In this document: positions 12,083 through 36,774 of the stretch, one piece after another
Numbering within the stretch: position 1 is the stretch's first letter
Layout of the letters: each line of letters opens with the position of its first letter
NCBI GenBank assembly: GCA_020854815.1
Contig: JAHKLW010000036.1
Coordinates: 1-55,458, forward strand
Origin: Methanofastidiosum sp.
GTDB lineage: Archaea; Methanobacteriota_B; Thermococci; Methanofastidiosales; Methanofastidiosaceae
Direction of reading: 5' to 3'
Length of the DNA: 55,458 nt
The notes under the pieces: model-generated
What the model was told of the DNA's origin: nothing
The model's input: only the letters and a program-made list of their open reading frames with translations
The model's database searches: none
Position numbers and translations under genes: made by a program

Positions 12083-12152
12083 GAAAAAACAGACATAGTA
12101 TATGGATAAAAAATATAAATTTAATTTTTTTATAAAAAAAGGAGAAGACAAA

Positions 12153-14663
12153 ATGAAAAATAGAACTTATTATATTTCTATTTCAATCTTTATTAGTCTA
12201 TTTCTTTTTATATCTCCACTCTATGCAGAAGATTCAAAAATTGTTGTTAAAGTTGGATTTTATGAAGACGAGCCCTTAGTATTCCAAGATAATAATGGAA
12301 ATATTAAGGGGCTATATGCGGATGTTCTAAACTATATTGCCATTAAGGAAGGATGGGAGATTCAATATGTTTATGGAACTCTTAATGAGGGGCTAACTAG
12401 AATCAAAAATAATGAAATTGATATTATAACTGCTGTTGCGTACTCTCCCGAGCGTGCAATATATGCCGATTTTTCTAAAGAAACACTGTTTCCTAACTGG
12501 GCCCAAGTTTATTCTATGCCTAGTTTAGAAATAGAATCATTCCTTGATTTGGAATATAAAAGAATCGCCGTAGTTAATGGTGATATCTATTATGTTGGGC
12601 CAAATGGAATCAAAAATCTGATGGATAATTTTGATCTTAACTGTACTTTTGTAGAGGTAAATGAGTATAATGAGGTCATTAAGTTAATTGAAGAAGAGAG
12701 CGTTGACGCAGGCATTTTAACAAGACTTTATGAATCTGAATTACAGAATAATCCAAAAATAGCAAAATCCTCCTTAATCTATTCTCCAATTAAACTACTT
12801 TTTGGATTTCCTAAAGGAAGCTCAAAAAATCAATATTTGATAGAAAAAATTGATTATCATCTAAAGATGTTAAAAGATGATCATGATTCTATATACTACT
12901 ACAGTATTAATGAATATATGCCAATATATTCTGCAAAAGAAGTACAGATATTCCCAAAATGGGCAAAGACTGTTGTAGGAGTCATACTTTTGGCACTATT
13001 AATATTTGTTAGTGCGAGCATGCTATTAACTAGGGAGGTGAAGAAAAGAACAAATCACCTAAACGAAGCAATAGGCGATCTTCAAAATGAGATTGCCCAT
13101 AGACTTGATGCTGAAGAATCTCTTAAAAAAAGTCAAGATAAATATAGGGAACTTACAGAAAAATTGTTAATAGAAAGTGAATCAAAATTTGAATCCATAT
13201 ATAATAATGCAGCAGTAGGAATAGATCTGTTAGATAAGGATCTCAAAATTATCGATTTAAATGATAGATTGGCAGATATGTTTGAATATTCTAAAGAAGA
13301 ATTAATAGGTAAAAATATCTTAGATATAACATTTCCCGAAGATATTGACCTAACAATAAAAAATTTAGATAATCTTATTAATGGTAATTTGAATTCATAC
13401 TCACTTGAGAAAAGATACAAGAAAAAAGACGGAAGTATTTTTTGGGGAGACTTATACGTATCTTCCATAGGAAATCAAAATGGAGAGTTCAAAGCAATTA
13501 TTGGAGTCATTGTTGATATTACTTCTCGCAAACAAGCAGAAGAACTATTAGAAGAAAGTGAAGAGAAATACAGAGAGCTTGTTGAGAATGCCAACAGCAT
13601 AATCGCAAAATTTGACAAGGACGGAAGAATTATTTCAATGAATGAGTTTGGACTTAAATTCTTTGGTTATGAAGAACAGGAACTAATAGGCAAAACTTGG
13701 GCCGAAACAATATTGCCCAAATTAGAATCGAATGGTAGGATTTTAGAAAATCTAGCTGCCGAAGTAATAAAAGAACCTGATAAATATTCCATTAGTATAA
13801 ATGAAAACATAAAGAAAAATGGGAAAAGAATCTGGGTATACTGGAATAACAAACCAATATATGACAAAGGAGAACTAGTTGGTATTCTTTCAGTTGGCAC
13901 AGATATAACTGAAAGAAAGAAAGCAGAAGAAAATTTGCATAAGGTAAACAAACAACTAGAAGAAGCTGATAGACTTAAATCAATATTCTTATCGAGTATG
14001 AGCCACGAACTTAGAACACCATTAAACTCTATAATAGGTTTTACTGGAATATTGTTACAGGGGCTTGCAGGAAATTTAAATGATGAACAAACTAAACAAT
14101 TAAGCATTGTTAAAAAAAGTTCACAGCATCTTTTAAGCCTTATAAATGATATCTTGGATATTTCAAAAATAGAAGCTGGAAAAATAGAACTTTCTTGTGA
14201 ATATTTTGACTTGAAAGAATTGATGGAAGAAGTTATTTTGACATTTGATACAATGGCCAAGGATAAGAATCTTAAAATTGAGAAATCTATACCTGAAAAT
14301 ATTACTCTTTATAATGATAAGAGAAGATTTAAACAGATAATCCTAAATCTTGTAAGCAATGCAATAAAATACACAAATGAGGGCAGTGTTAAAATTATGG
14401 TCAAAATCTTGGATAATAAAGAGCTTGAAATTAAAATTATTGATACAGGAGTTGGAATTAAAAAAGCGGACCTTAATAGAATATTTGAACCATTTCAGCA
14501 GTTAGATGATAAATTGACAAAAAAAGTTGAGGGTACAGGATTAGGCCTTCATCTTGTAAAAAAATTATTGAGCCTTATGAATGGTAATATTTTCCTAGAG
14601 AGTGAATATGGAACGGGAAGCGTGTTTACTATTACTATGCCATTAAGAATTAGAGAGGAATAA
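12153..14663 (+). CDS. Membrane sensor histidine kinase: SBP-PAS-PAS-HisKA-HATPase
   Basis: The protein is about 836 residues. A signal peptide (ISISIFISLFLFISPLYA) leads a periplasmic amino-acid-type binding domain (SBP_bac_3, about 25-265). Then come one transmembrane helix (VVGVILLALLIFVSASMLL), a coiled linker, two PAS domains ending DITSRK and DITERK, a HisKA domain with the H-box SSMSHELRTPLNSIIGF, and an HATPase domain (NLVSNAIKY, DTGVGIK, GTGLGLHLVKK). It probably senses an extracellular solute and phosphorylates the adjacent response regulator. ATG 12153, with AAGGAG 9 to 14 nt upstream, gives a proper signal peptide. The in-frame ATG 12102 would start a leaderless mRNA but adds a non-signal extension. 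The domain order is of bacterial type. Confidence 0.88.
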   Translation: MKNRTYYISISIFISLFLFISPLYAEDSKIVVKVGFYEDEPLVFQDNNGNIKGLYADVLNYIAIKEGWEIQYVYGTLNEGLTRIKNNEIDIITAVAYSPERAIYADFSKETLFPNWAQVYSMPSLEIESFLDLEYKRIAVVNGDIYYVGPNGIKNLMDNFDLNCTFVEVNEYNEVIKLIEEESVDAGILTRLYESELQNNPKIAKSSLIYSPIKLLFGFPKGSSKNQYLIEKIDYHLKMLKDDHDSIYYYSINEYMPIYSAKEVQIFPKWAKTVVGVILLALLIFVSASMLLTREVKKRTNHLNEAIGDLQNEIAHRLDAEESLKKSQDKYRELTEKLLIESESKFESIYNNAAVGIDLLDKDLKIIDLNDRLADMFEYSKEELIGKNILDITFPEDIDLTIKNLDNLINGNLNSYSLEKRYKKKDGSIFWGDLYVSSIGNQNGEFKAIIGVIVDITSRKQAEELLEESEEKYRELVENANSIIAKFDKDGRIISMNEFGLKFFGYEEQELIGKTWAETILPKLESNGRILENLAAEVIKEPDKYSISINENIKKNGKRIWVYWNNKPIYDKGELVGILSVGTDITERKKAEENLHKVNKQLEEADRLKSIFLSSMSHELRTPLNSIIGFTGILLQGLAGNLNDEQTKQLSIVKKSSQHLLSLINDILDISKIEAGKIELSCEYFDLKELMEEVILTFDTMAKDKNLKIEKSIPENITLYNDKRRFKQIILNLVSNAIKYTNEGSVKIMVKILDNKELEIKIIDTGVGIKKADLNRIFEPFQQLDDKLTKKVEGTGLGLHLVKKLLSLMNGNIFLESEYGTGSVFTITMPLRIREE

Positions 14664-14665
14664 AT

Positions 14666-15028
14666 ATGGGAAGAATACTTATAGTTGAGGACAATGAGAA
14701 CAACCTCTATCTTACTAAATATATACTTGAAAAAAATGGACATACTACAATTACAGCTAGTAGCGGTTGTGAAGGTGTAAAAAAAGCAATTGAGGAAAAA
14801 CCTGACCTTATCATAATGGACATACAGTTGCCTGATATCAACGGGCTTGAAGCAACAAAAAGGATAAGAGAGTCCCCTGTAGGCAATTCTATCCCCATAA
14901 TAGCATTGACATCATATGCAATGATGGGGGATAGGGATAAAGCACTTAAAGCAGGATGCTCTGGCTATATTGAGAAACCCATTGATCCTGAAAAATTTAT
15001 TAATCAAATTATGGAATACTTGAAATAA
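14666..15028 (+). CDS. CheY-like single-domain response regulator
   Basis: A 120-residue stand-alone receiver. The acidic pocket (VEDNENN), phospho-acceptor Asp52 (IIMDIQLPD), switch Thr82 (ALTSYAM) and Lys104 (YIEKPIDP) are all present, so it should be phosphorylated normally. It begins 2 nt after the kinase stop, which makes it the probable partner of the SBP-PAS kinase. No output domain is attached, so it must act through protein contacts or as a phosphate shuttle to the following PAS protein. Confidence 0.9.
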   Translation: MGRILIVEDNENNLYLTKYILEKNGHTTITASSGCEGVKKAIEEKPDLIIMDIQLPDINGLEATKRIRESPVGNSIPIIALTSYAMMGDRDKALKAGCSGYIEKPIDPEKFINQIMEYLK

Positions 15029-15041
15029 TGGGAGGTTAATA

Positions 15042-16904
15042 TTGGAGATACTTATTGTAGAAGATAATGAAGAAATTGCATATCTTCAAGAAAAAATCTT
15101 AGCTGCAAATAACTATCTTGTTACTAGAGCTTCAAATGGCCAACAAGCTCTTGAGTTGCTGGCTTACAAAAAGTATGATATGATAATTTCTGATATACTA
15201 ATGCCAGTAATGGACGGGTTCCAGCTTTGTAAAACATTGAAGAACGATCCTAAAACTAAGGACCTACCTTTTGTTTTTTATTCGGCGAGCTATACTGAAA
15301 AAAAAGACAAGGAATTTGCATTAAAATTAGGCGCAGATATCTACGTAGAGACCCCAATTGAACCTGATGAATTTATCAAAATAATTAATAACTATTTTGA
15401 AAATTTCAAAGAAGGAAAAATAAAGCCAAGAGAGTATTTATTCGAAAAAGAAAACAATATGGAAAAGATTTACAGTGAACGTTTGGCAAGGCAACTAGAG
15501 AAAAAGTTAGTACTCCTAGAAAAAAAAATGGCCGAAAATAATGAATTAATGAAAAAATTAAAGCAAAGTGAAGAAAGATACCGTGAGCTTGTAGAAAACG
15601 TAAACAGTATAATAACGAAGTACGATGTGGATGGAAATATCTTATCAATGAATGAATATGGATTAAAGTTTTTTGGGTATAAGGCGGAAGAGATCATTGG
15701 AAAGAATTTTATAGGAACTGTTACCCCGCCTATCGACTCTACTGGAAAAAATCTTAGTTTTTTGCTTAAAGATATTTTTTCTGACATAGAAAGATACTCT
15801 ACAAATATCAATGAAAATATAAAAAAGAATGGAGAAAGAGTATGGGTATACTGGGCAAATAGGCTTATAGTTGATGGTAATGGAAATTATACCGGGATAT
15901 TGTCCGTGGGTACGGATATAACTGAAAGAAAAAAGCTTGAGGCAGAAATAGTATTGCTTCATAACGCCGTAGACCAAAGTCCTGCTATTGTCATTATAAC
16001 TGACAAGGATCGAAAGATCGAATATGTAAATCCAAAGTTTGTTGAAGTAACTGGTTTCACTTCATCTGAAGTAATAGGAAGAGATGCTTCTTTCTTGGGC
16101 GGAGAACCTTTTTCTGAAGAAAATGACAGAGAGTTTTTGAATACCTTATCAAAAGGCAATGAATGGCAAGGAGAGTTCAAGAATATAAAAAAGAATGGGA
16201 ATATTTATTGGGAATTGGCATCCATTGCCCCTGTTAAAACGCAAAGTGGGATAATAACACATTTTGTAAAAGTAGCAGAGGATATAACATATCGAAAATT
16301 AGCTGAAAAGGAACTGCAAGAAAGGGAAGAAACGTTAAAGGGTATTCTTTCGGCTGCCCCAGTTGGCATAAATTATCTACAAGATAGAAAATTCAAATGG
16401 TCAAATAGAGAAATGGCAGAGATTACAGGTTATTCTGATGAAGAGTTAGTTGGAAAAACTCCGAGATTTCTTTTTGAGTCAAATGAAGAGTATGAACGAG
16501 TTGGAAGTATCTTATATGACCCAGTAAGGGACCAAGACGTTATAGAAGTTGAAACAAACTATAAGCTAAAAAATGGCGATACTAAGGACATTTACATAAG
16601 AAACAGTCCATTGGATATTAAAGACCTTTCCAAGGGTTATATAACGTTAGTAATGGATATCACGGATAACAAAAAATCTAGAAAGCAATTAGATGAGAAC
16701 TTAGAATACTTTGCCCACCTGATAGATCACATAAGAAATCCTCTGGCTATTTTGAGCGGTTTCGTACAAGTTAATGTTGAGGATGAAAAAACAAAAGACG
16801 TTGTTATTCGACAGGTAGATAGAATCGAGAAATTATTAAAAGAGCTTGATCAGGGATGGATGGATACAGAGGAAACTAGAAAATTCTTGAAAAGATATAT
16901 GTAA
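15042..16904 (+). CDS. Receiver-PAS-PAS-PAS protein with HisKA-like tail, no ATPase domain
   Basis: 620 residues, starting at TTG 15042 with GGGAGG just upstream. The receiver is at 1-120, with Asp51 (IISDILMPVMDGF) but TP at 104-105 where the invariant Lys-Pro is expected. A coiled linker follows (about 135-175), then three PAS domains (first ending SVGTDITERK, then VAEDITYRK and VMDITDNKK). The C-terminal helix pair resembles a histidine phospho-acceptor domain (LIDHIRNPLAILSGF). No HATPase domain follows before the stop. It may be a phospho-relay or scaffold component fed by the adjacent kinase. The loss of the receiver lysine suggests altered switching. Confidence 0.85.
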   Translation: MEILIVEDNEEIAYLQEKILAANNYLVTRASNGQQALELLAYKKYDMIISDILMPVMDGFQLCKTLKNDPKTKDLPFVFYSASYTEKKDKEFALKLGADIYVETPIEPDEFIKIINNYFENFKEGKIKPREYLFEKENNMEKIYSERLARQLEKKLVLLEKKMAENNELMKKLKQSEERYRELVENVNSIITKYDVDGNILSMNEYGLKFFGYKAEEIIGKNFIGTVTPPIDSTGKNLSFLLKDIFSDIERYSTNINENIKKNGERVWVYWANRLIVDGNGNYTGILSVGTDITERKKLEAEIVLLHNAVDQSPAIVIITDKDRKIEYVNPKFVEVTGFTSSEVIGRDASFLGGEPFSEENDREFLNTLSKGNEWQGEFKNIKKNGNIYWELASIAPVKTQSGIITHFVKVAEDITYRKLAEKELQEREETLKGILSAAPVGINYLQDRKFKWSNREMAEITGYSDEELVGKTPRFLFESNEEYERVGSILYDPVRDQDVIEVETNYKLKNGDTKDIYIRNSPLDIKDLSKGYITLVMDITDNKKSRKQLDENLEYFAHLIDHIRNPLAILSGFVQVNVEDEKTKDVVIRQVDRIEKLLKELDQGWMDTEETRKFLKRYM

Positions 16905-16990
16905 TATTCTCTTTCTTTTTTTAAATACTAAATAATTTCAAATAAATGAAAAATGGCTCTGAATTGGAATCTATTTAGAAAAAGAATTGG

Positions 16991-17062
16991 TGCGGTCAGC
17001 GGGATTCGAACCCGCGTCATGAGCTTGGAAGGCTCAAGTGCTAACCACTACACTATGACCGC
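16991..17062 (-). tRNA. tRNA-Gly(UCC)
   Basis: The minus-strand transcript folds as a complete cloverleaf. A 7-bp acceptor (GCGGTCA with TGACCGC), 4-bp D stem, TGAGC/GCTCA anticodon stem around loop CTTCCAA, and GCGGG/CCCGC T stem with TTCGAAT are all seen. The anticodon is UCC, reading GGA and GGG. The discriminator is A (complement at 16991). The bases at 16988-16990 encode the 3' CCA end in the DNA. No intron is present. Confidence 0.96.
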
Positions 17063-17085
17063 TTCTTTTTTATTCGAATTAATTG

Positions 17086-17095
17086 TATATTTAAA
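17086..17095 (-). promoter_or_regulatory. TATA box of tRNA-Gly(UCC)
   Basis: Read on the minus strand this is TTTAAATATA, about 28 nt before the mature 5' end of the tRNA (17062), the normal archaeal promoter spacing. Confidence 0.6.
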
Positions 17096-17132
17096 ACTTT
17101 CTCTTTTAGCCACCACAATGCTTAAAAATTGA

Positions 17133-17142
17133 TATTTTAAAA
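17133..17142 (+). promoter_or_regulatory. TATA-like box for the his leader and operon
   Basis: TATTTTAAAA is centred about 21-24 nt before ATG 17159 of the His-rich leader ORF, so transcription could begin at or very close to that ATG. An alternative weaker box, CTTAAAAATT at 17121-17130, would give a leader of a few nucleotides. Confidence 0.4.
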
Positions 17143-17158
17143 AACATATGTGGATTAT

Positions 17159-17230
17159 ATGGGCATTATTAACGTAAACGTTAAGTTTGATTCTTCTATT
17201 ATAATATCATGTGCTGCCCATCATCATTAA
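17159..17230 (+). CDS. Putative histidine-operon leader peptide (23 aa, ends His-His-His)
   Basis: This ORF is ATG-GGC-ATT-ATT to GCT-GCC-CAT-CAT-CAT-TAA. It encodes 23 residues (start MGIINVNVKF, end SCAAHHH) just upstream of hisG. Three consecutive His codons sit immediately before the stop. The ATG lies near the predicted transcription start, so it is probably translated leaderless, unlike hisG, which has a Shine-Dalgarno site (17247-17252) 16 nt beyond the stop. This is the layout of an amino-acid attenuator leader: ribosomes would stall on the His codons when charged tRNA-His is scarce. Alternative RNA pairings that involve these codons are given separately. A chance ORF with three terminal His codons at this exact place is unlikely. 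No direct evidence for translation is available. Confidence 0.75.
   Translation: MGIINVNVKFDSSIIISCAAHHH
17169..17184 (+). repeat. Inverted repeat TTAACGTAAACGTTAA inside the his leader
   Basis: The arms TTAACG and CGTTAA form a six-pair stem with a TAAA tetraloop. As DNA it is a near-perfect 16-bp palindrome just downstream of the predicted transcription start, where a repressor could bind. As RNA it lies in codons 4-9 of the leader ORF. Either role is possible. Confidence 0.45.
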
Positions 17231-17258
17231 TTACGTCATTTTTGGCGGAGGTATTTTC

Positions 17259-18116
17259 ATGCTAAAAATAGCTATTCCTAAAAAGGGGAGATTATCAAAT
17301 CCCTGTCTTGAAATATTAAAAAAATCAGGTTATGAGTTTGAAGATAGCGGTAGGAAGTTATTTTCACGTATCGAAGAAAAAAATATTGAGGCTGTATTTG
17401 TGAGGACTCAAGACATACCCGAATACGTTCAGGATCAAGTTGTGGATATAGGGATAACTGGTCTTGATATCATTGGGGAAAGAGGTGCTGATGTTGAAGT
17501 TTTGCTAAAACTGGGATTTGGAAAATGCACACTTACAATCGCCGCACCGAAAAACTCATCTATAACAAAGTTTGATGACATTAAGAATGGAATGAAGATT
17601 GTGACAGAATTCCCCAAAAGTACAGATAAATACTTTAAAGATAAAGGCATTAATCTGAAGGTGATTGAAGTGTCAGGTTCAACGGAAATTGCCCCTTACC
17701 TTGGGGTGTCCGATTTAATATCGGACATAGTTAGCACTGGAACAACTTTATTGATGAACAATCTAAAACCCATATCCAAAATTATTGAATCTGAGGCAGT
17801 GCTAATAGCAAACAAGAATAGCATTAAAGAGAAGAGAGATGAGATAGAACTTCTTTCTGCATCAGTTAGAAGCGTCTTAGATGCACAGGGTAAGAAGTAC
17901 ATTATGGTAAATCTTCCTACCAAATCATTGGGTAAATTTGAAAAGGAATTTCATGGTCTTGGGGGCCCAACAGTAATGGATGTAATATCAAAAGAATCAC
18001 TTGTTGCAGCTCACTTTGTAGTCGATGAAAAACAGGTATCAGAAACTATTCAAAAACTTAAAAAGATGGGCGGAACAGGAATTCTTATTATCCCTATAGA
18101 ACGGTTGGTGAATTAG
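17259..18116 (+). CDS. hisG: ATP phosphoribosyltransferase, long form
   Basis: HisG catalyses the first step of histidine synthesis, ATP + PRPP to phosphoribosyl-ATP. The protein is 285 residues: MLKIAIPKKGRLS start, DIGITGLDII substrate-binding turn, and a PRPP-binding stretch with VSGSTEIAPYLG and IVSTGTTL. The C-terminal segment from about 205 is the ACT-like regulatory domain of the long, HisZ-independent form, where histidine feedback acts. The frame is open upstream to GTG 17211, but ATG 17259 is chosen because it has a GGAGGT site six bases before it and fits the family N-terminus. It is the first enzyme gene of a nine-gene unit and lies behind a His-rich leader ORF. Confidence 0.95.
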   Translation: MLKIAIPKKGRLSNPCLEILKKSGYEFEDSGRKLFSRIEEKNIEAVFVRTQDIPEYVQDQVVDIGITGLDIIGERGADVEVLLKLGFGKCTLTIAAPKNSSITKFDDIKNGMKIVTEFPKSTDKYFKDKGINLKVIEVSGSTEIAPYLGVSDLISDIVSTGTTLLMNNLKPISKIIESEAVLIANKNSIKEKRDEIELLSASVRSVLDAQGKKYIMVNLPTKSLGKFEKEFHGLGGPTVMDVISKESLVAAHFVVDEKQVSETIQKLKKMGGTGILIIPIERLVN

Positions 18117-19382
18117 TTGATTGAAATTTATGAAGGCTCAAAAGCTCTATTTGAAAAAGATAAACAGAGAAAAGTCCTATTAGAAGATGATGGTTACGTA
18201 AAGTCAATTTTATTGGATGTAGAAAAGAGAGGAGACGAAGCGCTCAGAGACTACACATTAAAATTTGACGGTGTCCAAATAGATGACTTTTTAGTAACTC
18301 AAGATGAGATAGCTGAAGCCTATGATAATGTAGATACCGAACTAATTGAAGCATTGGAAACTTCAGCTGAAAACATAGAGGATTTCCACAGAAGAGAGCT
18401 TCCCCAATCCTTTTTATTCGAAAAAAAAGGTATTACAGCAGGGCAGATGATATTGCCCATAGAAAGTGCAGGAATTTATGTCCCTAGTGGTCGGGCATCA
18501 TATCCTTCTACAGTGCTCATGGCAGCAATCCCTCCAAAAATATGTGGTGTTCCAAGAATAGTTGTAGTAACCCCTTCAGGCAAGGATGGCAGATGCAATG
18601 ATGCAGTTTTGGTAGCATCAGACATTGCAGGTGTTGATGAAATTTATAAAGTAGGCGGAGCTCAAGCAATAGCGGCCTTATCGTATGGGACAGAATCAAT
18701 TAAAAAAGTTTCAAAAATAGTCGGGCCAGGAAATAGATATGTTGCAATGGCAAAAAAACTTGTTGAAACCCCAACTGAATTTCCAGCGGGCCCTAGTGAA
18801 GTAATGATAATTGCTGAAGAAAAATCAAATCCAAGATTTATTGCCTTAGACATGCTTGCCCAATCTGAACACGATCCTATGGCTTCAGCATACCTATTGA
18901 CTACATCAAGATCTATTGCTGAAAAAGTTGTGAGGGAAATAGAAAATGAGCTTAAAGTATTGCCAAGAAACGAGATACTGAAAGAATCTTTGAAAAGAGG
19001 CGGAGTATTCATAGTATCATCTTTAGAGGAAGCAATAGAACTTTCAAACAATTTTGCCCCAGAACACCTTGAACTAATGGTTAAAGAACCATTCTCACTT
19101 CTTACAAAGATTAAAAACGCTGGCTCAGTTTTTTTGGGAGAATACTCTCCTGAAGCCATGGGGGATTATGTTTCAGGAACAAATCACGTACTCCCTACAT
19201 CAGGATTTGCAAAATTTTATTCCAGTCTTTCAGTTGATGATTTCATAAAAAAATATACATTCCAATATGTCACAAAGGAAGGGCTAAAGACTTATAGGGG
19301 CACAGTTTCAACACTTGCTAGGTCTGAAGGATTATTTGCGCATGAAAAAGCGGTTAACGTGAGGTTTGAAGATGAAAAGTAA
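18117..19382 (+). CDS. hisD: Histidinol dehydrogenase
   Basis: HisD performs the last two steps, NAD-dependent oxidation of histidinol to histidine. The 421-residue length is normal. Family landmarks are SAGIYVPSGRASYPS, GPGNRYVAMAKK, PAGPSEVMIIA, the zinc-site AQSEHDP and SGTNHVLPTSG. It starts at TTG 18117, directly after the hisG stop, with GGTTGGTG before it, so translation is probably coupled to hisG. Confidence 0.95.
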   Translation: MIEIYEGSKALFEKDKQRKVLLEDDGYVKSILLDVEKRGDEALRDYTLKFDGVQIDDFLVTQDEIAEAYDNVDTELIEALETSAENIEDFHRRELPQSFLFEKKGITAGQMILPIESAGIYVPSGRASYPSTVLMAAIPPKICGVPRIVVVTPSGKDGRCNDAVLVASDIAGVDEIYKVGGAQAIAALSYGTESIKKVSKIVGPGNRYVAMAKKLVETPTEFPAGPSEVMIIAEEKSNPRFIALDMLAQSEHDPMASAYLLTTSRSIAEKVVREIENELKVLPRNEILKESLKRGGVFIVSSLEEAIELSNNFAPEHLELMVKEPFSLLTKIKNAGSVFLGEYSPEAMGDYVSGTNHVLPTSGFAKFYSSLSVDDFIKKYTFQYVTKEGLKTYRGTVSTLARSEGLFAHEKAVNVRFEDEK

Positions 19383-20421
19383 ATTCGATAGAGACCTTTT
19401 AGAGAATCTTGATCCATACTCTTCAGAAGTTTCGGTATCCGATGGTAATTTAATAAGATTACACGCAAATGAACTTCCATGGAAAAACGAAACTGTAGTT
19501 TGTGGTTTACACGATAACATCTTATCAATGCCCTTAAACAGGTATCCGGAAGTCACAAATTCCAACACACGAAAAAAAATTGCAGAGTATATCGGATTTG
19601 AAAAAGAAAATGTACTAGTTGGAAACGGTAGTGATGAGATTATTGATACAATTGGAAAAGCTTTCATTTCTCCACTTGATAAAGTATTAATACCCTCTCC
19701 TACTTTTTCACTTTACGCTAGTACCACAAAGATTTATTCAGGACTTCCAATAATAATCCCTCTTAATCCTGATTTTACTCTCTCTGTTGAAAAAATAATT
19801 TCTGAAGCAAAAAATGCCAAGATGGCCATCATTTGTAGTCCAAATAATCCTACAGGCATAGCATACCCAGACGAAGAAATCAAAACCATACTTGACACAG
19901 GGGTATTGGTAATTCTTGATGAAGCGTATGCCGAATTTTCTGGACATTCAGGACTAAACTTGGTGAATAATTATGATAATTTGATTGTCATGAAGACATT
20001 TTCAAAAGCATTTGGGCTTGCAGGATTTAGAACAGGATACTGCGTGGCATCAGAAACATTAATTGAGTCAATGAGCAAAGTTATGCTCCCATATAACCTA
20101 AATCTAATATCTATGAAGGTAGTTGAACTTGCAATCCAGCATGAAGATTTTATGAAAGATTCTGTTAAAAAAATAAAGGAAAACAGAAAATATCTTTATG
20201 GTGCAATGCAGGAGATAAAGGGTATAAATTCAATTCAGTCAAATGCTAATTTCATACTATTTGAAACAGAAAATCCTAGAATGATCTATGAAGAGCTATT
20301 GAAAAGAGGAATTCTAATTAGATACTTCGAAGGCAAAAATTATATGAGAGTCTCTGTAGGAACTTACGAACAATGTGTAAAATTTATTTCTTATTTGAGG
20401 GAGATATTAAATGTCTGTTAA
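19372..20421 (+). CDS. hisC: Histidinol-phosphate aminotransferase
   Basis: A class I/II PLP-dependent aminotransferase converting imidazole-acetol phosphate and glutamate to histidinol phosphate. At 349 residues it shows NGSDEII, SPNNPTG, DEAYAEF and the Schiff-base lysine Lys212 in TFSKAFGLAGFRTGY. ATG 19372 with GAGGT at 19361-19365 is preferred to TTG 19366. It overlaps hisD by 11 nt, which implies coupled translation. Confidence 0.94.
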   Translation: MKSKFDRDLLENLDPYSSEVSVSDGNLIRLHANELPWKNETVVCGLHDNILSMPLNRYPEVTNSNTRKKIAEYIGFEKENVLVGNGSDEIIDTIGKAFISPLDKVLIPSPTFSLYASTTKIYSGLPIIIPLNPDFTLSVEKIISEAKNAKMAIICSPNNPTGIAYPDEEIKTILDTGVLVILDEAYAEFSGHSGLNLVNNYDNLIVMKTFSKAFGLAGFRTGYCVASETLIESMSKVMLPYNLNLISMKVVELAIQHEDFMKDSVKKIKENRKYLYGAMQEIKGINSIQSNANFILFETENPRMIYEELLKRGILIRYFEGKNYMRVSVGTYEQCVKFISYLREILNVC

Positions 20422-21019
20422 GATAGGTATAATTGATTATGGAATGGGGAATTTAAAGAGTGTTTACAAAGCTTTTAGATTTTTAAAAGCAGATCCTGTT
20501 TTCATTGATAAAGAAGAAGATTTCGATTGTGATGGTTTAATACTCCCTGGAGTTGGGGCATTTGAAGATGGAATGAAGAATTTAGGGCCTTTTATTAAAG
20601 TATTAAAAAAGGAATCGGTAACAAAGCCTCTTCTCGGAATTTGTCTTGGCATGCAAATGCTTTTCTCAGATAGTGAAGAAAACGGATTTTTCAAAGGATT
20701 AGATCTTATACCCGGATCTGTAAGGAAACTACCCGAAGGACTCAAAGTACCTCACATGGGATGGAATAGCATTGGATTCTTAGATGATGATCCTTTAGTA
20801 ATCGGAATAAAAAATGAATCTTATTTCTATTTTGTTCATTCTTATGCACCGTTCTGTGGGCCTGATTATACTCTTGGTGAAACAGAGTATGGAATAAGAT
20901 TTCCCTCAATAGTTGCAAAAGACTTTATTTACGGAACTCAGTTCCACCCTGAGAAAAGTGGCGAGTCCGGACTAAAGCTTCTTAAAAATTACATAAATAT
21001 AGTGGAGAGCACGATATGA
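20411..21019 (+). CDS. hisH: Imidazole glycerol phosphate synthase, glutaminase subunit
   Basis: HisH hydrolyses glutamine and passes ammonia to HisF. The 202-residue class I glutamine amidotransferase has its nucleophile Cys78 in GICLGMQMLF, an oxyanion region GVGAFEDGM, and the His179/Glu181 pair in TQFHPEKSG. It overlaps hisC by 11 nt and hisA by 4 nt. Confidence 0.95.
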   Translation: MSVKIGIIDYGMGNLKSVYKAFRFLKADPVFIDKEEDFDCDGLILPGVGAFEDGMKNLGPFIKVLKKESVTKPLLGICLGMQMLFSDSEENGFFKGLDLIPGSVRKLPEGLKVPHMGWNSIGFLDDDPLVIGIKNESYFYFVHSYAPFCGPDYTLGETEYGIRFPSIVAKDFIYGTQFHPEKSGESGLKLLKNYINIVESTI

Positions 21020-21726
21020 AAGTCTTGCCTGCAGTTGATATCTTAAATAGAAAATGTGTACAACTTGTTGGAGGAGATCCCGATATCAAGGTGTTTGAGA
21101 ATCCAGATCCGCTCACAATTGCAAAAAAGTGGGCAGAGTATTCAGATTATTTGCACCTGATTGACCTTGACGCTGCCATATATAACTCAAGTATCAATAG
21201 GGATATAATAAAAAAAATACTATCTGAGATTAAAGTTCCCGCCGAAGTTGGGGGCGGGATAAGAAGTATAGAGATATTTAGAGAGCTAATTAATGCAGGT
21301 GCGGATAAACTCATTATGGGCACCTCAGCAGTAAAAAATCTTGAACTTCTAAAAAATATAAATGATGAATTTGGGAAGGATAGAATAGTCATTGCTTTGG
21401 ATGTTAAAGGAGAAGAGGTATCAATCTCTGGCTGGACTCAAGGCTCAGGTTTATCGATATATGAAACAATAAAAAATTTAGAAGAATATACATCCTCCTT
21501 CCTAATCACAAGTATAGGTGTCGAGGGAAGGATGACGGGGCCAGACACAGTGCTATACAAAAAGATTTTATCCCTCATAGATGTAGAGATAATTGCATCA
21601 GGTGGGATTTCATCAATTGATGATTTAATAAAACTTGATAAAATAGGCATTAACAAAGCCGTAGTCGGAACGGCAATTTATACTAATAAGATTGATTTAA
21701 ATGAGGTAAGGAAAGTATTTGGGTGA
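21016..21726 (+). CDS. hisA: ProFAR isomerase (phosphoribosylformimino-AICAR-P isomerase)
   Basis: A beta/alpha-barrel Amadori isomerase of 236 residues. The catalytic pair is visible: Asp8 (LPAVDIL) and Asp129 (IALDVKGEEV). Phosphate-binding loops EVGGGIRS and ASGGISSID are present. The DG turn usual in the middle of the barrel is EG here (GVEGRMTGPD), a mild divergence. ATG 21016 overlaps the hisH stop (ATGA). Confidence 0.93.
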   Translation: MKVLPAVDILNRKCVQLVGGDPDIKVFENPDPLTIAKKWAEYSDYLHLIDLDAAIYNSSINRDIIKKILSEIKVPAEVGGGIRSIEIFRELINAGADKLIMGTSAVKNLELLKNINDEFGKDRIVIALDVKGEEVSISGWTQGSGLSIYETIKNLEEYTSSFLITSIGVEGRMTGPDTVLYKKILSLIDVEIIASGGISSIDDLIKLDKIGINKAVVGTAIYTNKIDLNEVRKVFG

Positions 21727-21732
21727 TTTGTT

Positions 21733-22305
21733 TTGAGAGAATCAAAAATTGAAAGAAAAACAAAGGAAACAAATATCAAGATCAAGTTGAATATAGATGG
21801 CCAGGGCAAATATAAAATTTCTACATCAAAGAAATTTTTTGATCACATGCTCGAGACTTTTTCTAGATACAGCCTTTTTGATATAGAAATAAAGGCTGAA
21901 GGAGATTTAACTCACCACCTTGTTGAAGACATAGGTATTGCAATGGGGATGGCATTTTCAGAGGCCATAGGAGACAAAAAAAGGATCAATAGAGTAGGCA
22001 CGGCCACAGTCCCAATGGACGATTCGCTTGTCATGACCTCCCTTGATATAGGTGGAAGGCACTACACAAAGTTTGATTTAAACTTCAAGTTTGACAAGAT
22101 TGAAGAAGTTTCACCCGATTTATTCTTACATTTCCTTGATTCTTTCGCACAGAAGGTTCCACTAAATCTATTCATAAAGGAATTCTATGGAGACGATGAC
22201 CACCACAAGATAGAGGCAGTCTTCAAATCATTTGGTAAAGCACTTTTAATGGCAACTTCATTTAATGATAGAATTGATCTACTTTCAACTAAAGGAGTGA
22301 TATAA
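21733..22305 (+). CDS. hisB: Imidazoleglycerol-phosphate dehydratase
   Basis: A 190-residue monofunctional IGPD, without the HAD phosphatase half found in enterobacterial HisB. Metal-binding motifs [22 protein letters not shown] and [17 protein letters not shown] are intact. It starts at TTG 21733, with GGTGA at 21722-21726. The absence of a fused phosphatase fits the separate PHP-type phosphatase gene at the end of the operon. Confidence 0.95.
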
Positions 22306-23060
22306 TGCATGCAAAGAGAATCATACCATGTCTTGACGTTGACCAGGGGAGAGTTGTGAAAGGTATAAAATTCGTAAATATCAGGGATGCTGGCGATCCT
22401 GTAGAAATGGCACAGCTTTATGATGAAAAAGGCGCGGATGAATTAGTATTTCTTGATATTACTGCTTCATCTGATAAAAGGAATATCATGGTTGATGTAG
22501 TTGAAAGGACGGGGGACGTTGTCTTTATACCATTTACAGTCGGAGGGGGATTAAGAAATATCGAAGACATAAAGGCAATATTACGTGCTGGAGCAGACAA
22601 GGTTAGTCTCAATACATCCGCAGTTCAAAATCCAGACTTGATAAAAGAATCTTCAAGAATATTCGGAAGCCAGTGCATAGTTCTTGCAATAGATGCTAAA
22701 AGGAAAGGTAAAAGTTGGGAAGTCTATACTCATGGGGGAAGGACTCCCACAGGCATAGATGCAGTTGAATGGGCAAAGAGAGCCGAAAATCTTGGTTGCG
22801 GAGAGATATTACTTACAAGTATGGATGCAGACGGTACAAAAGATGGATATGATATCCCTCTGACGAAAGCAATTTCTGAAGCTGTTAATATCCCAGTTAT
22901 TGCTTCAGGCGGAGCTGGAAATGCAGAGCATATCTACCAAGCATTGACCAAAGGTAAGGCCGACGCGGCACTTGCAGCTTCCATATTCCATTACGAAGAA
23001 CATTCAATTAGAAAGGTAAAAGAATACCTTAGATCAAAAAAGGTATCGGTAAGATTATGA
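22305..23060 (+). CDS. hisF: Imidazole glycerol phosphate synthase, cyclase subunit
   Basis: The 251-residue barrel partner of HisH makes imidazole glycerol phosphate and AICAR. Catalytic Asp11 ([13 protein letters not shown]) and Asp130 ([10 protein letters not shown]) are present, with phosphate loops GGGLRN and ASGGAGN. Its ATG shares one base with the hisB stop (TAATG), so translation is tightly coupled. Confidence 0.96.
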
Positions 23061-23680
23061 GTGACTTTAATCTGAAGTGGGATGAAAAAGGCCTTATTCC
23101 TGCCATCGTTCAGGATTACAATACGAAAGAAGTACTTATGATGGCCTACATGAACGAAGATTCATTAAAAAAGACACTTGAAACTGGGAGAACATGTTTT
23201 TGGTCAAGAAGCAGAAAGAAGTTCTGGTTTAAGGGAGAATCATCTGGTAATGTACAAAAGGTAAAAGAAGTGAGGTATGACTGCGATGCAGATTCTATTC
23301 TAGTTCTAGTTGAGCAAATCGGTGCAGCATGTCACGAAGGATACCCAACATGTTACTTTAGAAAAATTGATGGAAAAATAATAGGTGAAAAGTCCTTTGA
23401 AGGTGGACTTTATGTTCTAGATGAACTTTACAAGTTAATAGAAAAAAGAAAGAAAGAGATGCCAAAGGATTCGTATACCACCAAATTACTTACCGATAAG
23501 AATCTCCTCCTTAAAAAAATCGGAGAAGAATCAAGTGAGGTAATTATATCTTATTCAGAGGAGAAAAAAAGAACCGTTGAAGAAGCCTCTGATCTTATCT
23601 ATCACTTATTTGTTTTATTAGTTGAAAGAGATATTAAACTTGAATCAGTTTTAGAAGAATTGAAAAAGAGAAGGAAGTGA
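23057..23680 (+). CDS. hisIE: Bifunctional PRA-CH / PRA-PH (HisI-HisE fusion)
   Basis: This does steps two and three of the pathway. The N-terminal HisI cyclohydrolase half (about 1-120) has [12 protein letters not shown], the metal-binding DCDAD and HEGYPTCYF. The C-terminal HisE pyrophosphohydrolase half (about 125-207) has [13 protein letters not shown] and [14 protein letters not shown]. The fusion is common in bacteria. ATG 23057 overlaps hisF by 4 nt. Confidence 0.95.
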
Positions 23681-23684
23681 ATAC

Positions 23685-24341
23685 ATGGATTTAGGAAAAA
23701 GATATGATTTTCATACCCATACAATATTTTCTGATGGCGAACTTATCCCATCAGAACTTGTGAGGCGTGCAGGGGCGTTAGATCACAAAGCAATTGCATT
23801 GACAGATCATGTCGATGCTTCAAATATAGAATTCATTGTCCCAAACCTTGCACGAGTTTCTGAGGAACTGAATCAATACTGGGATATAAATGTAATTCCA
23901 GGTGTTGAGATTACACATGTACCTCCCGAGACAATTAAAAAACTAGCAGTCAAGGCAAAAAAACTTGGCGCAAAAATAGTTGTTGTCCATGGGGAGACTC
24001 CAGTTGAACCTGTCATGCCAGGTACAAACAGAAGCGCAATTGAGAGCGGTGAAGTTGATATACTTGCACATCCAGGAATAATTGATGAAAAAGATGCAAA
24101 GCTTGCAAACAAATCAGATATATTTCTTGAAATAACTGCAAGAGGTGGTCACAACATTGGAAATGGAAGAGTTGCTTCATTAGGTGAAAACTTCATTTTA
24201 GATACAGATACACACTCGCCAAGTAATCTAATCACCCAGGAATTTGCATATCGTGTCGCTTTGGGTGCAGGACTTAAGGAAGAATCTGCTATAAATGTGA
24301 TTAAGGAAAATCCAAAAATATTACTCGAAAAGATTTTATAA
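23685..24341 (+). CDS. PHP-family phosphatase, probable histidinol-phosphatase
   Basis: A 218-residue PHP metal-dependent hydrolase with metal-site motifs YDFHTHTIFSDGE, LTDHVD, GVEITH, VVVHGETP, DILAHPG and DTDTHS. The family includes HolPases, and this gene closes the his operon 4 nt after hisIE. That operon lacks any other phosphatase for histidinol phosphate. The assignment to that missing step therefore rests on position plus fold. It is not a canonical HisK by length. A hairpin with a T-run follows. Confidence 0.8.
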   Translation: MDLGKRYDFHTHTIFSDGELIPSELVRRAGALDHKAIALTDHVDASNIEFIVPNLARVSEELNQYWDINVIPGVEITHVPPETIKKLAVKAKKLGAKIVVVHGETPVEPVMPGTNRSAIESGEVDILAHPGIIDEKDAKLANKSDIFLEITARGGHNIGNGRVASLGENFILDTDTHSPSNLITQEFAYRVALGAGLKEESAINVIKENPKILLEKIL

Positions 24342-34848: not shown

Positions 34849-36774
34849 TTGTCTTCAGAGGAGATACTTAAAGAAATTAAAAACGTTGTAACGGAAAATA
34901 TACCTCCAGGTGCAGTCATTACAAATATTGACTTCGAAGGTCCAGAGGTCGTTATATACACCAGAAATCCCGGGATGCTAGTTGACGACGGTGAAATAGT
35001 AAAAGAGCTAGCGAAGAACTTGAGAAAAAGGATCATTGTAAAGCCTGATTCTGCAGTTCTTACTACAGAAGAGGACGCTGTAAACAAAATTAAGAATATA
35101 GTCCCAGACGAGTCTGAGATAACTGATATAACATTTGATCCTTCTGCATCAGAGGTAATAATTGAAGCAAAGAAGCCAGGACTTGTCATTGGTAAATCAG
35201 GACAAACATTGAGAGACATAACACGAGTTGTAAGATGGGCCCCCATCGTAAGAAGAAGTCCTCCTTTGCAGTCAGATACCATAAAGGCAGTCAGGGCCAC
35301 ACTTCAAAAAGAGGCAGACGAGAGAAAAGCTATATTGAAGAGAATAGGCCACAGGATTTATAGGTCTCAGGATGTACGCTCTGAATGGATTAGAGTTTCT
35401 TTTCTTGGAGGCTTCAGGGAAGTAGGCAGGTCGTGTATTTTACTTCAGACTCCAGAATCCAAAGTTTTGCTGGATTGTGGGGTGAATGTAGCAACAAATG
35501 ACCCTAAAATTTCATACCCGCACTTAGATGCCCCTGAATTTAAATACCTCTTGGGTGCAAAAGAACTTGATGCAGTAATAATAAGTCATGCACATCTTGA
35601 TCATTGTGGTTTTGTTCCCTATTTGTATAAATATGGTTACGAAGGTCCCGTGTACTGCACACCACCAACAAGAGACCTAATGACCATGCTACAGCTAGAT
35701 TATATAGATATAGCATTCAAAGAAAATCACCCGTCACCTTACTCAAAAAAAGATGTAAAAAGCGTAATACACCATACAATCCCTGTCGATTACAAAGAAG
35801 TAAGAGATATTTCTCCAGATATTAGGCTAACATTCCATAATTCTGGCCATATACTAGGTTCAGCTATGGTACATCTCCACATTGGAAATGGACTTCATAA
35901 TATAGTATACACAGGCGACTTTAACTTTGACACATCCAGGCTTTTAGAAAAAGCCAGCTTTAAGTTCCCACGTCTTGAATCATTGATAATTGAATCAACA
36001 TACGGTGGATCCCATGATATGCAGATGCCCAGAGGAGAAGCAGAAAAAAATCTATTGAAAATTATCTATGATACCACATCACAGGGTGGAAAAGTCTTAA
36101 TCCCAGTTCTTTCAGTTGGAAGGTCTCAGGAAATTATGCTTGTCTTAGAAGAGCTTATGGAAGGGGGAGCTTTAGAAAAGATGCCAGTTTATCTTGATGG
36201 AATGATCTGGGAAGCAACTGCTATTCACACAGCTTATCCAGAATATCTCTCAAAAGATATAAGGGAAATGATATTTCATCAGGGTAAGAATCCATTTCTA
36301 TCTGAAACTTTCGAAAACGTGAAAACTAATGATAGAAGAAAGAGTATTATCGAAGGACCGCCTTGTATTATCCTTGCAACTAGTGGTATGCTCGTCGGTG
36401 GACCATCAGTTGAATATTTCAAGGCACTAGCAGATGACGTTAGGAACTCAATAATATTTGTAAGTTATCAGGGCGAAGGTTCTCTTGGAAGAAAGGTCCA
36501 GAAAGGCATGACAGAACTTCCACTTATGGGATCAAATGGTAAGAATGATATGATCCACATCAGGATGAAGGTTTACACAGTCGATGGTTTCTCAGGCCAC
36601 TCAGATAGAAACGAGCTAATGGAATTTATAAAGAGATTAAATCCAAAACCAGAGAGGATAATAACGGGCCATGGAGATCCTGCAAAATGCACCGACTTTG
36701 CAAGTACAATTTATAGAAAGTTTAGAATAGAGACTAAAGCACCATCAAATCTTGAGACAATAAGATTGAGTTAG
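34849..36774 (+). CDS. fttA: aCPSF1/FttA: KH-domain beta-CASP ribonuclease, transcription termination factor
   Basis: A 641-residue archaeal CPSF73 homolog that cleaves nascent RNA at U-rich sites to end transcription. The N-terminal KH-like region (about 1-145) has VIGKSGQTLRDITR. The metallo-beta-lactamase core has SHAHLDHCG. The beta-CASP domain follows (STYGGSHDMQMPRGEAE, TSGMLVGGPSVEY). The C-terminus has DGFSGHSDRNELMEF and TGHGDPAKC. It starts at TTG 34849, with GGTGAG at 34840-34845. This is the likely trans-factor for the oligo-T signals noted here. Confidence 0.96.
   Translation: MSSEEILKEIKNVVTENIPPGAVITNIDFEGPEVVIYTRNPGMLVDDGEIVKELAKNLRKRIIVKPDSAVLTTEEDAVNKIKNIVPDESEITDITFDPSASEVIIEAKKPGLVIGKSGQTLRDITRVVRWAPIVRRSPPLQSDTIKAVRATLQKEADERKAILKRIGHRIYRSQDVRSEWIRVSFLGGFREVGRSCILLQTPESKVLLDCGVNVATNDPKISYPHLDAPEFKYLLGAKELDAVIISHAHLDHCGFVPYLYKYGYEGPVYCTPPTRDLMTMLQLDYIDIAFKENHPSPYSKKDVKSVIHHTIPVDYKEVRDISPDIRLTFHNSGHILGSAMVHLHIGNGLHNIVYTGDFNFDTSRLLEKASFKFPRLESLIIESTYGGSHDMQMPRGEAEKNLLKIIYDTTSQGGKVLIPVLSVGRSQEIMLVLEELMEGGALEKMPVYLDGMIWEATAIHTAYPEYLSKDIREMIFHQGKNPFLSETFENVKTNDRRKSIIEGPPCIILATSGMLVGGPSVEYFKALADDVRNSIIFVSYQGEGSLGRKVQKGMTELPLMGSNGKNDMIHIRMKVYTVDGFSGHSDRNELMEFIKRLNPKPERIITGHGDPAKCTDFASTIYRKFRIETKAPSNLETIRLS

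Follow-up and report, generated by a model that had tools for sequence, protein, structure and literature searches.

Can a short open reading frame (ORF) that ends in histidine codons, lying just ahead of the histidine operon of an archaeon, sense the supply of histidine for that operon? The question was raised by a window of 55,458 nucleotides of DNA from Methanofastidiosum, a methane-producing archaeon (all positions below refer to this whole stretch), in which a sequence-only reading had recognised the signature of ribosome-mediated attenuation upstream of hisG. The answer favoured here, with moderate confidence, is that it can: the element would act as a leader ORF that senses histidine, in which a ribosome would stall at two adjacent histidine codons (His-His) when histidyl-tRNA is scarce and so switch the operon on. 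The host had been taken to be archaeal, in agreement with its nearest relatives, Ca. Methanofastidiosum MAGs, whose HisG is 88-90% identical to that of the window. The sample comprised the window's genome (G000) and nine further Methanofastidiosum genomes (n = 10 in total, mostly MAGs).

The operon runs in the order hisG-D-C-H-A-B-F-IE and continues with a gene for a histidinol-phosphatase-type PHP protein (NCBIfam), and the whole histidine pathway is encoded in this one run of genes (Table 1). Just 5' of the operon, at 12102-16904, large two-component sensor kinases and response regulators are clustered, as read from the ORF translations.

Table 1. Features of the his leader region and his operon in the window
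Feature	Positions	Strand	Basis or remark
Divergent tRNA-Gly(TCC), bounds promoter region	16988..17062	-	ARAGORN; Rfam tRNA 74.9 bits
TATA-like box CTTAAAAATT of his promoter, predicted	17121..17130	+	TTAAAA in 10/10 genomes
Leader ORF with revised GTG start, 26 codons, MDYMGIINVNVKFDSSIIISCAAHHH then stop, probably leaderless	17150..17230	+	in-frame GTG/ATG and open frame in 10/10 genomes
Arm 1 of helix 1:2, around ATG 17159	17154..17162	+	paired with 17207-17215 in about 91-92% of cells
Leader ORF as first described, ATG start, 23 codons	17159..17230	+	translation; ATG in 10/10 genomes
Arm 2, immediately before the His codons	17207..17218	+	pairs with arm 1, or 17214-17218 with 17244-17248
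His codons CAT CAT CAT	17219..17227	+	first two are the invariant His-His; third varies H/Q/N/Y
Small hairpin CGTC-ATTTTT-GGCG, between stop codon and hisG Shine-Dalgarno	17234..17247	+	stem core in 10/10 genomes
Shine-Dalgarno GGAGGT of hisG	17247..17252	+	sequence; kept also where hisG decayed
hisG, first structural gene	17259..18116	+	TIGR00070, 213 bits
hisD, hisC, hisH, hisA, hisB, hisF, hisIE, histidinol-phosphatase-type PHP protein	18117..24341	+	NCBIfam

The leader ORF and its persistence

The ORF described at the outset is present in front of the operon and translates as MGIINVNVKFDSSIIISCAAHHH before its stop. Three CAT codons and a TAA (17228-17230) close the frame, hisG begins 28 nt after the stop, and hisG carries a GGAGGT of its own, all as had been claimed. 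The start codon required revision. The ATG at 17159 first proposed is kept in 10/10 genomes, but a codon 9 nt upstream, at 17150, is probably the true start, because in all ten genomes it is an in-frame GTG (8/10) or ATG (2/10, G001 and G005) and the first T of TTAAAA lies 27-28 nt before it, with varying bases between. This is the spacing expected from an archaeal TATA box to the start of transcription, and the transcript is therefore probably leaderless, beginning at the first codon. The codon that precedes ATG 17159 is TAT or TAC across the genomes, and no strong Shine-Dalgarno sequence is visible before either candidate start.

The leader region was found at the his operon in 10/10 genomes (a second G008 copy ends at a contig edge), with the ATG, the open frame, the stop and His-His all retained. 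The sequence-only reading had proposed looking in relatives for a short ORF with terminal histidine codons, and had named their loss amid conserved flanks as evidence against it. The ORF and His-His persist throughout, even where hisG has decayed, but the emphasis on three histidine codons needs correction: the first two are invariant across the genus and the third is dispensable, its place being taken by Q in G001, by N in G003 and G004 and by Y in G005. The ORF ends in ...SCTAHHH in G008 and G002, ...SCTAHHQ in G001, ...SYIAHHH in G006 and G007 and, with one extra codon in each case, in ...SSIAHHH in G009, ...TSYHHN in G003 and ...TVNHHY in G005. The G004 end, ...YTFHHNY, results from a frame shift after His-His and has a moved stop, TAG. 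Up to His-His all indels within the ORF are whole codons, and single-base indels occur just outside, in the flanks. Between the end of the second invariant histidine codon and the hairpin core GYC lie 8 nt in G004 and 10 nt in each of the other nine genomes.

A further comparison comes from genomes that have lost a working operon hisG. In G004-G007 the gene is a disabled or deleted remnant, still followed by other his genes and preceded by the leader and hairpin (loci G004:C3, G005:C26, G006:C57 and G007:C11). It is a frameshifted pseudogene in G006 and G007, and in G004 and G005 the distance from the hisG start position to hisD has shrunk to 147 and 180 nt; hisC seems interrupted in G007, and the G006 sequence stretch stops short of the operon end. 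A divergent hisG paralog, 35-37% identical, is found elsewhere in these genomes and presumably supplies the enzyme. In the hisD tree, G006/G007 group with G001/G002 (support 97) and G004/G005 with G003 (support 60), and this separation means that hisG decayed at least twice. Between G002 and G006 the leader is 86% identical with 0 indels and the spacer 93% identical; hisG is 72% identical, with 8 gaps of 1-58 nt. Since the leader outlives hisG, the element serves the operon and not hisG alone.

RNA pairing, and explanations other than histidine sensing

Among all 3,826 ungapped 8-bp helices scanned in the alignment, the top two pair arm 1 with arm 2, and this helix 1:2 reaches 91% against 16-57% for slid controls. 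In 9/10 genomes RNAfold favoured helix 1:2, either itself or in a shifted register, with the ATG mostly paired. The RNAalifold consensus combined helix 1:2 with a pairing of CUGCC (17214-17218) and GGCGG (17244-17248), which in that model would exclude the small hairpin. The stem core of that hairpin is present also in the genomes without hisG, with a loop of 3-6. It was the sole terminator-like match (1 against 0.1 expected) and a weak one, having 4-5 pairs and only GAGGTATTTT as a tail, with still shorter T-runs in G003 and G004. No convincing intrinsic terminator made of a GC-rich hairpin and a U-run was found before the first gene; archaeal termination needs no hairpins. When the his and leu leaders were searched against Rfam, the tRNA alone exceeded the threshold, and no T-box or other known RNA regulator did.

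These pairings bring up translational attenuation, according to which a stall at His-His would keep arm 2 off the Shine-Dalgarno of hisG, so that hisG would be translated only under histidine shortage, and the genes behind it by coupling. The strong conservation of that site, the CUGCC-GGCGG pairing in the consensus and the possible base-pairing of arm 2 with GGAGGTAT (third in rank, tied with others, with 86% of cells paired) give it some appeal, but RNAfold put the probability of the arm 2-Shine-Dalgarno pairing at about 0, and a modelled ribosome stall barely altered accessibility of the site in most genomes. As a translational switch this pairing was thus set aside: attractive in its conservation, unsupported by its energetics. 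Neither it nor helix 1:2 showed covariation on both sides in the 10-genome alignment, in which little variation is present. The retention of the leader in the four genomes with a disabled or tiny hisG also weighs against this account, and it is considered possible but doubtful. The same four genomes count against a supply of ribosomes to hisG by reinitiation, or a small functional peptide, with histidine codons that sense nothing. Reinitiation would suit the 21-28 nt that separate the ORF stop from the hisG start position in all ten genomes, and bacterial leader-ORF reinitiation is described in the available text of PMC4833913, but the peptide is unconstrained as a protein, by the sequence comparison, with the exception of His-His and a few other positions. 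An explanation of this kind is quite unlikely.

The pN/pS of the leader is about 1 (0.213/0.223), and some of the site conservation could therefore lie at the level of DNA or RNA. Together with the conserved flank upstream of the ORF and a perfect palindrome, TTAACGTAAACGTTAA, within the ORF of G000 (about 17167-17182), this value would suit a DNA operator, or a structured RNA, that serves a regulator and contains an open frame by accident. The palindrome was discarded as an operator, being perfect only in G000 and G008 and broken in the other genomes, G009 and G001-G006 among them; that it is broken in most genomes disfavours the operator, as do the features specific to the frame, namely the whole-codon indels, the moved TAG of G004, the interchange of GTG and ATG at 17150 and the retention of His-His. 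An operator is accordingly given a low probability, slightly above that of reinitiation or a peptide. A pN/pS near 1 fits a leader in which the frame and the cognate codons matter, but it also confines the coding evidence to those features.

Chance, meaning that a small frame arose in AT-rich intergenic sequence and was passed on by common descent, had to be weighed as well, as all sequences come from one genus, mostly as MAGs, and the comparisons share ancestry. Moreover, the pattern CAYCAY...TAA...GGAGG occurred 0-8 times on each strand of a genome (reversed control, 0-5) and was rejected as an unspecific genome-wide detector; since it is not rare by itself, the case rests on conservation. 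Chance is opposed by the dinucleotide shuffles of 17063-17258, of which 0/40,000 gave an ORF of 10 or more codons that ends in HHH and a stop within 60 nt of hisG; 0.23% had His-His anywhere in the last four codons. In neutral simulations, with the hisD topology, branch lengths fitted to the leader and an observed sequence at the root, start, open frame and stop survived in all ten genomes in 0.06-0.8% of runs, and with His-His included in 0-0.065% (at most 0.07%). With the survival of the leader beyond hisG in at least two lineages, chance is very improbable.

How the leader may act

The histidine-sensing leader ORF favoured here builds on the observed ORF conservation, His-His, promoter spacing, hairpin and operon; translation, stalling, the direction of the response and the output step would fit these as follows. 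The transcript would begin at GTG 17150 or no more than two nucleotides away from it, and a ribosome would load at its 5' end with RNA polymerase close ahead. When histidyl-tRNA is scarce, the ribosome would stall on the invariant His-His, covering arm 2, which should lie inside the footprint expected of a ribosome on these codons, and standing just 5' of the hairpin. When histidine is plentiful, it would reach the stop codon and depart, upon which arm 1 would fold with arm 2 and the downstream RNA would be free of ribosomes. Stalling would thus raise the expression of the whole operon.

The output most likely acts at the operon level, through continued transcription against FttA-dependent termination, the opening of the first downstream ribosome-binding site, or both. 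Termination by a factor would be the preferred candidate, ahead of translational control at the first downstream site, because an intrinsic terminator is not apparent, the genome encodes FttA and mutual exclusion of ribosome and FttA has been proposed, as the available text of PMC11616081 and PMC8116511 indicates. The gene for FttA/aCPSF1, the factor that terminates transcription in archaea, lies in the window itself, at 34870-36768 (TIGR03675, 977 bits). Of the attenuation signature originally claimed, a ribosome-sensed histidine leader stands as the best reading, given His-His in 10/10 genomes, but neither a strong intrinsic terminator nor alternative hairpins supported by covariation accompany it.

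Related leaders and the wider setting

A second conserved leader ORF, of 16 codons (MELVIRGGAFLPLAKV and variants), precedes a complete leu/ilv operon in the same genus, and its region was found in nine genomes (G000:C19, about 67813-67932, minus strand; loci L086-L089 and L108-L116). The operon reads leuA-ilvB-ilvN-ilvC-leuC-leuD-leuB-cimA-ilvD, where ilvN and leuD were assigned by position and size, as the threshold used hid small proteins. Among the genomes read, 6-7 of the 16 codons specify Leu, Ile or Val, and the position of the stop is fixed even though TAA, TGA and TAG are all used. The leader has an AGGTG ribosome site, and a CTCCRTAG farther downstream is able to base-pair with the surroundings of the leader's ATG. 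It was not found among 51 relatives outside the genus. This second leader, itself putative, supports leader-ORF control as a habit of the lineage.

Searches for a His leader before the genus's hisG paralog, before hisS and before hisG of four Methanocellales/Methanosarcinales loci found none, and no leader comparison was possible in Thermococcales, because hisG lies directly 3' of another long ORF in nearly all loci. A 24-codon ORF, MRGNLFWLSRNNKVPRNAFKEFKN, overlaps the trpE start in another frame (L133 and L134; G000:C100 and G003:C91) and is conserved in both genomes found to have trpE; the G003 trpE has no standard start codon at the position used in G000.

The closest known counterpart is hisL of Escherichia coli and Salmonella, where a short ORF with tandem histidine codons likewise precedes a complete his operon, the RNA can pair around those codons and the position of the ribosome is the expected switch. 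The enterobacterial his leader has seven histidine codons. The Methanofastidiosum leader differs in being archaeal and probably leaderless, in having two invariant histidine codons and not a long run, and in lacking a clear intrinsic terminator, its hairpin being only 4-5 bp. The proposed sensing resembles that of the bacterial his leader; the element falls outside that family for want of an intrinsic terminator, and its candidate helix switch speaks neither for nor against. The leu/ilv leader shares its position and its 6-7 branched-chain codons of 16 with bacterial leu/ilv leader peptides, such as those of ilvBNC in Corynebacterium glutamicum (PMC11857589) and the BCAA attenuator of Staphylococcus aureus (PMC5794164), but has an archaeal promoter, no long codon run and a conserved RGG.FL core with a possible role as nascent peptide. 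HisR operators and His T-box riboswitches of Gram-positive bacteria (PMC9413887) also place his genes under the control of histidine supply, but by a DNA-binding protein or a tRNA-binding RNA, without a leader ORF. FttA/aCPSF1-dependent termination could provide the output step, and the factor is present in this genome; in the available text of PMC11616081 and PMC8116511 it is a general terminator with a proposed role in coupling quality control, and no amino-acid leader ORF is reported.

The sequence-only reading knew of no well-established archaeal case, and the literature concurs: as of 2021, no mechanism of transcription attenuation or antitermination was known in archaea (PMC8448881), and the available text of later open literature (PMC11456600, PMC11616081, PMC10450193) holds no report of one, preprints and subscription journals lying outside the search. 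A broader idea is put forward tentatively, as a possibility with the odds against it, namely a class of leaderless archaeal amino-acid-sensing leader ORFs without an intrinsic terminator, in which a ribosome loaded at the 5' end would protect the nascent transcript from FttA and, by where it stands on His-His or on the branched-chain codons of the leu/ilv leader, would govern read-through of the operon. The lineages that kept the leader and lost hisG offer a natural experiment already at hand. Should the inferred mechanism hold, a second domain of life would have leader ORFs that sense amino acid supply.
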